Source: a virus. From it: a stretch of DNA of 48,523 bases. A program made the position numbers and the translations under genes. Where the stretch lies: positions 1 to 48,523 of the IMG/VR virus record IMGVR_UViG_3300037119_003930, one strand, 5' to 3'. Positions 1,812-36,175 of the stretch are shown piece after piece. The notes beneath the pieces are model-generated. The model had not been told where the DNA came from and searched no databases. It saw only the letters and a list, made by a program, of their open reading frames with translations. The stretch's first letter is position 1, and each line of letters starts with the position of its first letter.

Positions 1812-3713
1812 GTGGCAGACCGGCAGCCCCTGGACGCGTACTCGCCCCTCGGGCACTACATGGCCGTGTCAGGGGCCTCCCGGGCACCGGTCTCCTCCTG
1901 GGTCCCCGTGGAGGACCGCAGGCGCCTCTCCGCGTACTACGTCCTCGACGCGTACCGGAAGAACAGCACCAGGAACCTCCTGCGCCGGGCCACCTGGGTC
2001 CGCCGCCAGAAGCAACGGGAGTACGGCGACCCCTCACTCCTGACGAAGCGGGTCCGGTCCGGGGTCCTGGGCGACGACTTCGAGCTTGTCCTGCCAGGAG
2101 CCGACGACGACCTGGGGGACGCCCCGGACCTCCCCCCACGCCCCGACCCGGTACCGGACGACGCGGACGAGATCGACCGGCGGGTGTTCACCGTGGCCGA
2201 GGCCAGATGGAAGGACCTGGCGAACCGCACGATCGACGAGTGGGAGGAGGCCGTCCAGGACCAGCCCTTCCTCCAGGAACGCCAGCAGGAACTTCGGGAC
2301 TGGGCCGACCGGGTCCTCCTCGCCCCCCTCATGGTGGAGGCCGAGGACGACTGCGTGAACCTGGGCGACACCATCTACGCCCTGTTCCCCCAACCGGGGG
2401 ACTGGCCCCGGGTCGAAATCTACGAACCGGACGGGTACTTCCCGGTCCTGGACACGAAGCGCGACGGGTACCCGACGAAGGTCCACCTGGCCTGGGAGAT
2501 CGAGGAGCGACTGCCGGACCAGACCACCAAGCGGTTCGTGGAGCGGTACACCTGGGAACTGGTCGAGATCGCCACGATGCAGGACGTGGAGGACGTGACC
2601 TCCGACGCCACCGGCAACATCGCCGTGTCCGGCGACGACGGGACGATCCGGGCCGGTAGGCGCTACCCCTGGGCGGAGACGGAGGAGGGCGAGGAGGCGG
2701 CGGTCTCCACCGAGACCTGTCTGTTCACCCGGGGCAAGTGGGAACTGGACGCGAAGACACTGTCGAAGGTCCCCGACCTGGACCTGGGGGCCGCGGTCGA
2801 GAAGGAGCAGATCGACCTCGAATGTGACTTCCTCCCGTTCGTCCACATCCCGAACACCCCCGCCTCCAGGGACCACTTCGGGCAAGGCTCCCTGACCCTG
2901 GTGGCGCAGATCATCGACGACATCGGGCAGACCGACACGGACCTGATGGAGACGGCCCGGCTCGTCGCGGCCCCGGCGATCGCCCTCTCCGGGGCGGAGG
3001 CGAAGGACCAGACGATCCGACCCCTGACGATCTTCAACCTGGGCAAGGACGGGGCGATGACCCTCCTCGACCTGTCCGTGGGCCTCGAAAAGGTCATGGC
3101 CTTCGCCGACCGGCTCGCGGACCGTCTCTTCGTCAACTCGCAGGTCCCGGCCACCCTGGTCGGGAAGGTCAACTCCTCCGACGCCCCCTCCGGCATCGCG
3201 ATGCTCCTGGACGCCGCCCCCTTCGCCCAGTTGATCGGGACCCTCCGGATGGCCCGGGAGCCGAAGTACCGGCTCCTCCTGAAGTTCGCGCAGCGCATGG
3301 CCCAGACCGCCGGGGTCCTCCCCCCGGGCCCCACCCCGGAGGCCATGGTCGCCTTCGGGTCCTTCCTGCCTCTGGACAAGGGTCAGGTGGTGGATCACGT
3401 CGTGGCCCTCCTCCAGGCGAAGGCCATCTCCCGGGCCACCGGGATCGCGCTCCTGGTCGCAGGCGGCTTCACGATCGAGGACGCCCGCAGGGAGATCACG
3501 CAGATCGAGTCGACTGACTTCGAGGGCGCCAAGAACCTGGCCGACGCCACCGGGTCCGAGGAGGCCGCCGCCGAGTACCTGCACCGGGTCCTGCCGGAAC
3601 CGGAGGAACCGGAGGCCGGGGCTCAGCCACCGGGGGTGGAGCTTCCCCCGGGCCCGAACGAACCTCCCCCGGGGGGCCCTGAAGCCGAACCACCGGTCCC
3701 GCCACCGGCCTAA
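1812..3713 (+). CDS. Portal protein
   Basis: A 633-residue protein that forms the dodecameric DNA gate at the capsid vertex. Size and position after terminase fit phage portals. It has the portal-type mixed alpha/beta body with an acidic insert (about residues 93-120), a stretch DRLFVNSQVPATLVGKV followed by a serine/glycine loop and a long helical segment typical of the portal stem and crown, and a proline-rich C-terminal tail (about residues 596-633). Start GTG 1812 follows the class B element at the usual distance. Family assignment rests on gene order plus these features. Confidence 0.85.
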   Translation: MADRQPLDAYSPLGHYMAVSGASRAPVSSWVPVEDRRRLSAYYVLDAYRKNSTRNLLRRATWVRRQKQREYGDPSLLTKRVRSGVLGDDFELVLPGADDDLGDAPDLPPRPDPVPDDADEIDRRVFTVAEARWKDLANRTIDEWEEAVQDQPFLQERQQELRDWADRVLLAPLMVEAEDDCVNLGDTIYALFPQPGDWPRVEIYEPDGYFPVLDTKRDGYPTKVHLAWEIEERLPDQTTKRFVERYTWELVEIATMQDVEDVTSDATGNIAVSGDDGTIRAGRRYPWAETEEGEEAAVSTETCLFTRGKWELDAKTLSKVPDLDLGAAVEKEQIDLECDFLPFVHIPNTPASRDHFGQGSLTLVAQIIDDIGQTDTDLMETARLVAAPAIALSGAEAKDQTIRPLTIFNLGKDGAMTLLDLSVGLEKVMAFADRLADRLFVNSQVPATLVGKVNSSDAPSGIAMLLDAAPFAQLIGTLRMAREPKYRLLLKFAQRMAQTAGVLPPGPTPEAMVAFGSFLPLDKGQVVDHVVALLQAKAISRATGIALLVAGGFTIEDARREITQIESTDFEGAKNLADATGSEEAAAEYLHRVLPEPEEPEAGAQPPGVELPPGPNEPPPGGPEAEPPVPPPA

Positions 3714-3722
3714 GGTCGGCGG

Positions 3723-4274
3723 GTGACCGTCATCGTCGGGGTCGTCTCCGGGAAACGGGTCGTCCTCGGGTCTGATTCGGTCCTGACCGACGACTCCCAC
3801 AGCGTGATGCACGCCCAGAAGGTCCACAGCATCCCCCTGAAGAACGGGCCCGGGTTCGTGCTCCTCGGCTGTGCCGGGTTCGCGGCCGCGCAAGGGGTCC
3901 TGGTCCGGCACCTGAAGCCCCGCCCCCCGGGCAAGAAGGGGCTGGGCCCCTGGGCGCAGGCCCTGGCGGAGGAGGCCTCGGACATGCTCCTGGAACGCCA
4001 CGTCACCGCCGGGGAGGAGGAAGGGCACTGTGCGGCCCTGGACGCCCTCCTGGCCTACGGGGGGAACCTCTGGTGCCTGTCCCATCAACTCGCCACCCCG
4101 GTCGGGTCCTACGTGGCGATCGGGTCCGGGGCGATGGCGGCCTCCGGGGCCCTGCACGCCCTGGCGGTCTCCGCGCCCCATCTCCTCCCGGAGCCCCGGG
4201 TCACGTACGCGGTGGAGGCGGCTGCGGCCTCCCACCTGGAGATCAGGGGCCCCGTCCAACTCCACTCCACGTAG
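3723..4274 (+). CDS. HslV/proteasome-like Ntn hydrolase, possible capsid maturation protease
   Basis: A 183-residue protein closely resembling the HslV protease subunit. After Met removal the N-terminus is Thr1, as in the proteasome and HslV; Asp17 is in the expected GSD position, Lys32 lies in an AQKVHSI strand like the KxxxI strand of HslV, and YVAIGSG matches the IAIGSG loop with the catalytic-site Ser. The C-terminal helix resembles the HslV EKALDIA helix. No HslU unfoldase is nearby. It lies exactly between portal and scaffold, where most phages carry the prohead protease, so I infer that it processes scaffold or capsid. An alternative is a host-directed protease. Confidence 0.8.
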   Translation: MTVIVGVVSGKRVVLGSDSVLTDDSHSVMHAQKVHSIPLKNGPGFVLLGCAGFAAAQGVLVRHLKPRPPGKKGLGPWAQALAEEASDMLLERHVTAGEEEGHCAALDALLAYGGNLWCLSHQLATPVGSYVAIGSGAMAASGALHALAVSAPHLLPEPRVTYAVEAAAASHLEIRGPVQLHST

Positions 4275-35362: not shown

Positions 35363-35376
35363 TCTCAGATTAGGTA

Positions 35377-35407
35377 TTGACAGGTCTGGACAGGTCTGTG
35401 TTACAGT
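35377..35407 (+). promoter_or_regulatory. Class A promoter for structured RNA region
   Basis: A perfect TTGACA, spacer of GGTCTGGACAGGTCTGTGT, and TACAGT (35402-35407) preceded by TGT (extended -10). This is the best -35 match of the family together with 45633. Predicted start is about 35413-35415. Confidence 0.75.
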
Positions 35408-35413
35408 GGTCTG

Positions 35414-35572
35414 TGTAGGAAGCAGCACAGACCAGGTAGCAGTGACCGGAGCCGATCCCGCGATCTCGGAGCCACCCCAACGACTGCCAGGTCTGCCCGC
35501 CGCCAGTGAAAGTCTGGTCGCCAGAACGGAGCATCCCCTGACGGGGGACCGGGACCGGCGGGAGCTTCCTAC
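35414..35572 (+). ncRNA. Candidate structured RNA with three-way junction
   Basis: The predicted transcript begins with GTAGGAAGC (35415-35423), which pairs perfectly with GCTTCCTAC (35564-35572). Inside, CAGACC (35428-35433) pairs with GGTCTG (35490-35495) and extends through GG/CC and CAGT/ACTG with a small bulge; CCCGCCG (35496-35502) pairs with CGGCGGG (35556-35562). The second and third helices are directly adjacent, so the whole forms a three-way junction closed by the first helix. Each arm has further hairpins (GATC/GATC around 35453-35464, TCCCC/GGGGA near 35533-35548). No ORF of gene-like codon use lies here. An alternative 5' hairpin, GGTCTGTG/CACAGACC (35408-35433), would compete if transcription began earlier. 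Confidence 0.55.
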
Positions 35573-35896
35573 TTGACAACCGAATACGAGAGAGTCCAGC
35601 AGGACCTCGGGACCCCCGAGGCACCACTGAGCAGACCCTGTGACCCCGTCCCTGACGGCTAACGACCACGACCTCGCTCCAGGCCTCCAGTCGGTAACGC
35701 GGACTGGAATCACGATGACCGAGGCGATCCCTGAACGAAGGACGGGTGAGGGCACTGCGGTAGGTGAGTGAAGGGGGAGAACGGGAGGACCTGCGACCGG
35801 GAGCAAGGGGGGAGGTGCATCGAACCCTGGAGGACCGGAACCGGAGAACCCCGGCCCGGGGCCCTGCTGGACCCTCTCGTCTGAACCAGGAGCACT
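35573..35896 (+). other. Non-coding continuation of structured leader
   Basis: Between the three-way-junction RNA and ATG 35897 I see no convincing gene but many helices: CCTCGGG/CCCGAGG (35605-35621), CCCGTCC (35645-35651) with GGACGGG (35740-35746) enclosing TCCAGTC/GACTGGA (35686-35708), and CCCCG/CGGGG (35849-35861). It could be one long RNA with the first domain, or a 5' leader of the 35897 gene. No terminator separates them clearly. Confidence 0.45.
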
Positions 35897-36175
35897 ATGA
35901 CCACGACACTCAAGTCCACTGCCCGAGGCCTCTACGAGGTTCGCCAGGACGGAGTCCTGATCGGGCTAGTCCACCGGACCTCCCGCCAGTTCCTCACGAT
36001 GGACAACAACCCCCGCATCATCGAGCGTGACATCCGCTGGCAGGGGGAGACCACCACCGGTCGGATGACCTACAAGGTCTCCACCCGGAAGGCCGCTGTC
36101 GACATGATCGTCCAGGGTCTCCGCTGTGAGGAGGCAGGCACTCGCCACTGGGGGCACTTCCTCCCCGAGGACTAG
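35897..36175 (+). CDS. Hypothetical protein downstream of structured RNA (92 aa)
   Basis: ATG 35897 has a clear AGGAG five bases upstream, unlike the leaderless class A genes, so it is translated from a long leader. Like them it starts ATGACCACGACA. The product is basic and mixed alpha/beta: GLYEVRQDGVLIGLVHRTSRQFLTMD, later KAAVDMIVQGLRCEEAG. No family is recognised. A strong terminator follows it, so RNA region and gene form a single transcription unit. Confidence 0.65.
   Translation: MTTTLKSTARGLYEVRQDGVLIGLVHRTSRQFLTMDNNPRIIERDIRWQGETTTGRMTYKVSTRKAAVDMIVQGLRCEEAGTRHWGHFLPED

Follow-up and report, generated by a model that had tools for sequence, protein, structure and literature searches.

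A putative phage non-coding RNA family with a three-way fold and a covarying self-complementary hairpin tip

Few natural RNAs are known as homo-oligomers. They include GOLLD, ROOL, OLE, phi29 pRNA and the retroviral dimers. In OLE (L9.3) and GOLLD (L21a), kissing loops were identified by the logic of palindrome switches, and the contact is visible by cryo-electron microscopy (PMC12286853). Here we describe an RNA at positions 35586-35880 of a 48,523-nucleotide (nt) stretch of viral DNA (IMG/VR record IMGVR_UViG_3300037119_003930; the window). It lies in a tail-lysis intergenic gap spanning 35363-35896, the same 534 bases that a first-pass annotation had singled out. Comparative analysis establishes a family of such RNAs, their helices and the covariation of a self-complementary element. 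We consider it probable that a phage non-coding RNA, free-standing and new to Rfam, is encoded at 35586-35880, with a three-way fold and the capacity to form a homodimer or an assembly unit through the tip of its P6 hairpin. The family is smaller than the known homo-oligomers and carries clear covariation for the self-contact.

A blastn search with the gap returned relatives for its second half only; they lie between genes in cluster C1 mycobacteriophages and in Myrna. An exact 21-base pattern matched 23 IMG/VR contigs and looser patterns added more. In all, the carriers number about 40 IMG/VR phage contigs and about 191 sequenced cluster C mycobacteriophage records, in which the RNA had escaped notice. 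The named phages with the RNA all belong to cluster C. Four more contigs (loci L048-L051; loci are given by L numbers) came from a pattern restricted to the 3′ hairpin, and all have the complete 5′ core, which argues against a pattern artefact. L032, L033 and L036 matched the 5′ pattern without the 3′ half and were excluded. GTDB genomes gave a single exact-pattern match that lacked the rest of the RNA and so is attributed to chance, the pattern search of plasmids gave no family match, and a search for relatives through the last tail protein of the window phage found none. The RNA's genome position varies, from about 20 kilobases in C1 phages (P1 near 21,360 in PQ184821) to 3 kilobases in Myrna and the tail/lysis gap in the window phage. 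Its length ranges from about 255 to 415 nt across the family. Accessory insertions enlarge it to about 350-415 nt; they lie in the P2-P6 interval in L001, L005, L016, L017 and L044 and after P3 in L024, L030 and L038, an example being GGGGAGUCAUGACCCC in Myrna-like members.

From its covariation, the conserved RNA is predicted to be a three-way junction of P1, a P2-P3-P4 rod and P6 (Table 1). P1 would close the junction, the P2a-P2b-P2c-P3-P4 rod would present a near-invariant internal loop, and P6 would form a hairpin. P1 is a closing helix of 23 to 30 base pairs (bp) whose sequence differs between divergent lineages while complementarity is kept within each molecule. The window P1 has a complementarity score of 56 against a shuffled maximum of 28; most members score 42 to 73 with different sequences, and family covariation is also seen. 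In this simple test of 30 members, P1 was not above shuffles in L012, L020 and L042 and was marginal in L037. All seven pairs of P3 have changed on both sides among relatives. Across the 12 pairs of P3 and P4 in alignment A2, in which TTCG stands in for the P4 loop to bring arms of unequal length (16-115 nt across the family) into register, 90% of cells are paired and covariation is 0.823, against 0.195 for shuffled and at most 0.13 for slid controls. The isolated purine-pyrimidine pair 35623/35769 is A-U in the window and G-C in other members, and the inner helix of P6 is 96% paired with double changes at every pair. With no structure presupposed, a comparison of every column with every other returned P1, P2a, P2b, P2c, P3, P4, P6, the P6-tip octamer described below and the isolated pair. 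Each modelled helix exceeds its shuffles, and the window copy is canonical at every modelled pair.

The internal loop between P3 and P4 has the family consensus CUGACGGYUAACGAYCAC / GAYCCCUGAAYGAA. Its invariance is partly search bias, yet L039-L042 and L048-L051, which were found with independent 3′ patterns, retain the loop. In L051 a GG/CC contact inside it has become GA/UC, a hint of a pair. Complementarity of the conserved loops to Escherichia coli ribosomal RNAs (rRNAs) was not above shuffles.

At the tip of P6 stands an octamer, of which seven variants were found (GUGCGCAC, GUGGCCAC, GUUGCAAC, GUCCGGAC, GCUGCAGC, GGUGCACC and GGUGCAUC); the last, present in the window, L040 and L048, is self-complementary with G-U pairs. 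The octamer is self-complementary in 25 of 25 distinct rows, a count that leaves out L027 (which has a longer palindrome), L014, L030 and L037, and three of its four pairs show double changes. The inner two pairs are distributed as GC 18/UA 6/CG 1 and, innermost, GC 13/CG 12. Since the innermost pair joins neighbouring nucleotides, it cannot form within one molecule. A parsimony count over an approximate tree, built from the RNA outside the octamer, gives about 12 palindrome switches. Two loci from different metagenomes, L039 and L041, agree at all but 7 of 274 positions; a GGCC-to-CCGG swap within the octamer accounts for four of the seven. Self-complementary covariation of adjacent loop nucleotides, by which homo-oligomeric ornate RNAs are recognized (PMC12286853), is thus found here. 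Because adjacent nucleotides covary, the RNA is most likely a homodimer or a unit of a larger RNA assembly, and homodimerization is strongly indicated by these comparisons. Two RNA copies would pair through the P6 tip, by a kissing contact or an 8-bp duplex, and the RNA would act as this homodimer or recur as the unit of a larger assembly.

Several points weigh against this interpretation. Part of the alignment was anchored by hand, and the shuffle controls ignore phylogeny. The minimum free energy of the GC-rich window RNA is modest against shuffles (z -2.8; the Issimir copy reaches -6.4). L014, L030 and L037 have rearranged P6 tips with six-base palindromes, as read by eye. Finally, about half of the members have a ribosome-binding site and a start codon within 40 nt after the RNA, and co-transcription with the following gene is possible.

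The last point bears on the best of the alternatives, that the RNA is a 5′ leader acting in cis on the downstream gene, which we regard as unlikely. In the window, the 35897 gene starts 16 nt past P1 with AGGAG ahead of its start codon, and the spacing is similar in L001, L044, L008, L014, L019, L021, L030, L040, L049 and L050. The downstream proteins, however, are mutually unrelated between phages, the sole homologous pair being that of the sister phages L005 and L017. The product of the 35897 gene has no homology to the proteins encoded after the RNA in the other carriers, no neighbouring gene is shared beyond sister phages, and the constant type of downstream gene that marks a leader or riboswitch is not seen. 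Intrinsic terminators follow P1 in L018 and L037, transfer RNA (tRNA) or transfer-messenger RNA (tmRNA) genes lie near the RNA in L012, L020 and L023, and about 270 nt separate the RNA from the next gene in Myrna. The P1 end is also closed and conserved without gene-specific pairing. Most members have a sigma-70-like promoter with its -10 element shortly upstream of P1 (for example, L005, L016, L017, L001, L027, L035 and L037); the promoter scan gave none that was convincing in L006, L007, L012, L019, L024, L038, L039, L043 and L050. The promoter-like sequences, the two terminators and the unrelated downstream genes favour a free-standing RNA over a leader, and we infer that it is an independent transcript with, in most members, a promoter of its own. 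The first-pass annotation had offered either a non-coding RNA or a leader of the 35897 gene; a structured phage RNA is borne out, and the leader is the less favoured half of that pair.

Nor does the RNA appear to be coding. No sense reading frame over it is conserved open, in agreement with the earlier statement that the gap holds no gene-like open reading frame. Antisense frames that cover the RNA in some members were set aside, each being open in only 8 to 11 of 34. In two C1 mycobacteriophages, an annotated protein gene overlaps the RNA, either beginning in it or being contained by it (Issimir gp66, L001 3264-3653; FoxtrotP1 gp66, L045 834-1025). A better start in Issimir is the ATG after GAAAGGAGG, about 35 nt past P1. 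Gene annotations across the RNA in cluster C phages need revision. In Myrna (L005), the RNA and gp9 are separated by another long non-coding region, at about 3615-3810, which contains inverted repeats.

The first-pass annotation had centred its structured RNA on a three-way junction farther upstream, at 35415-35572. The three helices of this junction are real: GTAGGAAGC (35415-35423) and GCTTCCTAC (35564-35572) are perfectly complementary, CAGACC (35428-35433) pairs with GGTCTG (35490-35495), CCCGCCG (35496-35502) pairs with CGGCGGG (35556-35562), and the minimum-energy fold contains all of them. It is nevertheless very improbable that function resides in this junction and that the conserved RNA only adjoins it. 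Exact pairings and a stable fold speak for it, but the fold is marginal against dinucleotide shuffles (z -2.26, with 4 of 200 shuffles as good; z -1.9 for the minimum free energy of the whole 35411-35896 stretch), and no homologue of 35415-35572 was found by blastn among 50,697 phage records or in the aligned relatives, where promoter-like sequence usually stands directly at P1. In the window, L021, L044 and L040 that sequence lies farther upstream of P1 and leaves room for a lineage-specific 5′ extension. The 35415-35572 junction is best seen as such an extension, and a function for it is unsupported. Of the "second domain to 35746 and beyond" in the same annotation, the pairing that ends at 35746 is P3; what was missed is that 35586-35880 is the significant conserved structure. 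Compensatory changes in homologues, proposed there as a check, are abundant in this second domain, and the first domain offers no homologues in which to look for them.

The free-standing, self-pairing RNA is also much preferred to two further explanations. A DNA operator for a dimeric protein is most improbable. It could account for a palindrome, which dimeric DNA-binding proteins generally favour, but the diversity of the carriers speaks against a single regulator, the octamer takes at least seven sequences where an operator for one protein would stay constant, and it always stands at the tip of the covarying P6 in the same GGA/GAA register. No more credible is a Y RNA-like partner of the Ro (TROVE) protein encoded by cluster C phages: TROVE was found in Issimir, Myrna, ScoobyDoobyDoo and the L016 contig but not in the remaining 17 of the 21 records with the RNA, among them the window (some of these are fragments), and the RNA matches no Y RNA or other Rfam model. 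An obligate Ro partner is rejected, with TROVE in only 4 of the 21 carriers, some of the others being fragments.

Searches of Rfam 15 with the window and Issimir copies, at the gathering threshold and at E≤10, gave no real match, the GOLLD, ROOL, OLE and Y RNA models all being unmatched; Twister-sister, at E 1.8, was a chance match. The earlier view that the RNA fits no nameable family, with GOLLD and ROOL as the nearest concept, is therefore upheld. No description of the RNA was found in the open-access PubMed Central papers searched (a set without preprints), mycobacteriophage reviews and transcriptomes among them. Against these models and papers, the family appears new. Non-coding regions with high transcription are also known from Rhodococcus phage WC1 and cluster A phages.

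By its way of working, the RNA is predicted to belong with the homo-oligomeric structured RNAs, in analogy and with no homology. Like GOLLD, a phage and prophage RNA that forms a 14-mer nanocage, it is phage-encoded, structured, extensively covarying and without an assigned function, and the GOLLD kissing loop shows the same GC/CG switch of adjacent nucleotides in a palindrome (PMC12286853). GOLLD, in contrast, often exceeds 800 nt, and there is no sequence or covariance-model match between the two. The present RNA is only occasionally near tRNAs: tRNA or tmRNA genes were found close to it in 4 of 36 loci scanned, which is not the tRNA-island location of GOLLD, whose linker sometimes holds a tRNA, and ARAGORN found neither in the window. 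ROOL, an octamer nanocage, is likewise a phage or prophage non-coding RNA that multimerizes through kissing loops, a property that is only predicted here, whereas the present RNA has no Rfam match and a different architecture, in which a rod and a single putative kissing hairpin are joined to one long closing helix. OLE, a homodimer, differs in being bacterial, about 600 nt long and equipped with known protein partners, and it does not match the present RNA. In the retroviral dimer initiation site and phi29 pRNA, both natural homomers, viral RNA copies are also joined by loop-loop contacts (PMC12286853); the analogy is one of mechanism, not homology, and nothing here points to genome packaging.

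Upstream of the RNA, the promoter-like sequence claimed at first pass is present, with TTGACA at 35377-35382. It is not a singular "best -35 of the window": it belongs to a 22-base motif, TTGACAGGTCTGGACAGGTCTG, with six plus-strand copies in the window phage (12065, 35377, 39100, 40518, 42138 and 45633, counted at up to 3 mismatches, with none expected by chance). The copies at 35377 and 39100 are followed by a -10-like hexamer after a 19-nt spacer. This spacer is long, and a standard sigma-70 scan (spacer 16-18) did not report 35377-35407; GACAGGTCTG occurs there as two tandem copies (35379-35398). As judged from these copies, TTGACAGGTCTGGACAGGTCTG is probably a phage-specific promoter or operator family, not one unique strong promoter. 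Between the 5′ extension and P1 lies the UUGACAACCGAA element. A UUGACAACUGAA-like sequence is found at the 5′ edge of L014, L018 (2449-2460), L024, L027, L035, L005, L001 and others, and in most carriers, the window not among them, it extends P1 by pairing with the 3′ flank. It may resemble the leader sequence beside boxA in actinobacterial rRNA operons.

Table 1. Features of the RNA locus in the window, with tRNA and tmRNA genes near the RNA in other loci
Feature	Position	Strand	Remarks
Putative promoter	35377-35407	+	-35 TTGACA 35377-35382; -10 TACAGT 35402-35407; 19-nt spacer; predicted from sequence
5′ extension, three-way junction	35415-35572	+	Exact pairings; no relative outside the window phage; lineage-specific
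UUGACAACCGAA element	35573-35584	+	Just 5′ of P1; many members have a UUGACAACUGAA-like sequence at this edge
Conserved RNA	35586-35880	+	About 295 nt in the window phage; family by blastn and pattern scans, structure by covariation
P1, 5′ strand	35586-35611	+	Pairs with 35855-35880
P2a, 5′ strand	35615-35617	+	Pairs with 35773-35775; 90% paired; covariation 1.07 vs 0.24 shuffled, 0/200
Covarying purine of GAGGYRCC	35623	+	Pairs with pyrimidine 35769 of GAGYGAA; 86% paired; 0/200 shuffles
P2b, 5′ strand	35625-35628	+	Pairs with 35763-35766; 96% paired; covariation 0.60 vs 0.17
P2c, 5′ strand	35636-35638	+	Pairs with 35750-35752; 98% paired; covariation 0.64 vs 0.13
P3, 5′ strand CCCGUCC	35645-35651	+	Pairs with GGACGGG 35740-35746
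Near-invariant internal loop, 5′ side CUGACGGCUAACGACCACG	35652-35670	+	Five variants among 28 aligned members
P4, 5′ strand	35672-35676	+	Pairs with 35720-35724
Near-invariant internal loop, 3′ side CGAUCCCUGAACGAA	35725-35739	+	From the family alignment
3′ strands of P3, P2c, P2b and P2a, with the pyrimidine	35740-35775	+	P3 35740-35746; P2c 35750-35752; P2b 35763-35766; pyrimidine 35769; P2a 35773-35775
P6 hairpin	35797-35838	+	Outer CC 35797-35798/GG 35837-35838; inner GGGG 35807-35810/CCCU 35825-35828; GGA and GAA flank the octamer
Self-complementary octamer GGUGCAUC	35814-35821	+	Predicted intermolecular kissing site
P1, 3′ strand	35855-35880	+	Pairs with 35586-35611
Downstream gene	35897-36175	+	92 amino acids; unmatched in PHROG; starts 16 nt past P1
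tmRNA or tRNA genes near the RNA	L012 10221-10616; L023 284-609; L020 629-712; L028 12093-12182		

What the paired RNA would do is the least certain step. It is a guess, and a doubtful one, that in lytic infection the dimer offers its two invariant loops, arranged symmetrically, to a macromolecule of the host. The roughly 191 isolated carrier mycobacteriophages grow on laboratory Mycobacterium smegmatis, and therefore deletion, expression and dimerization can be tested directly. On balance, we lean toward a new class of phage RNA, a protein-free symmetric homodimer or higher assembly with two invariant loops as its active or binding centre, that lytic phages of high-GC hosts may use in infection.
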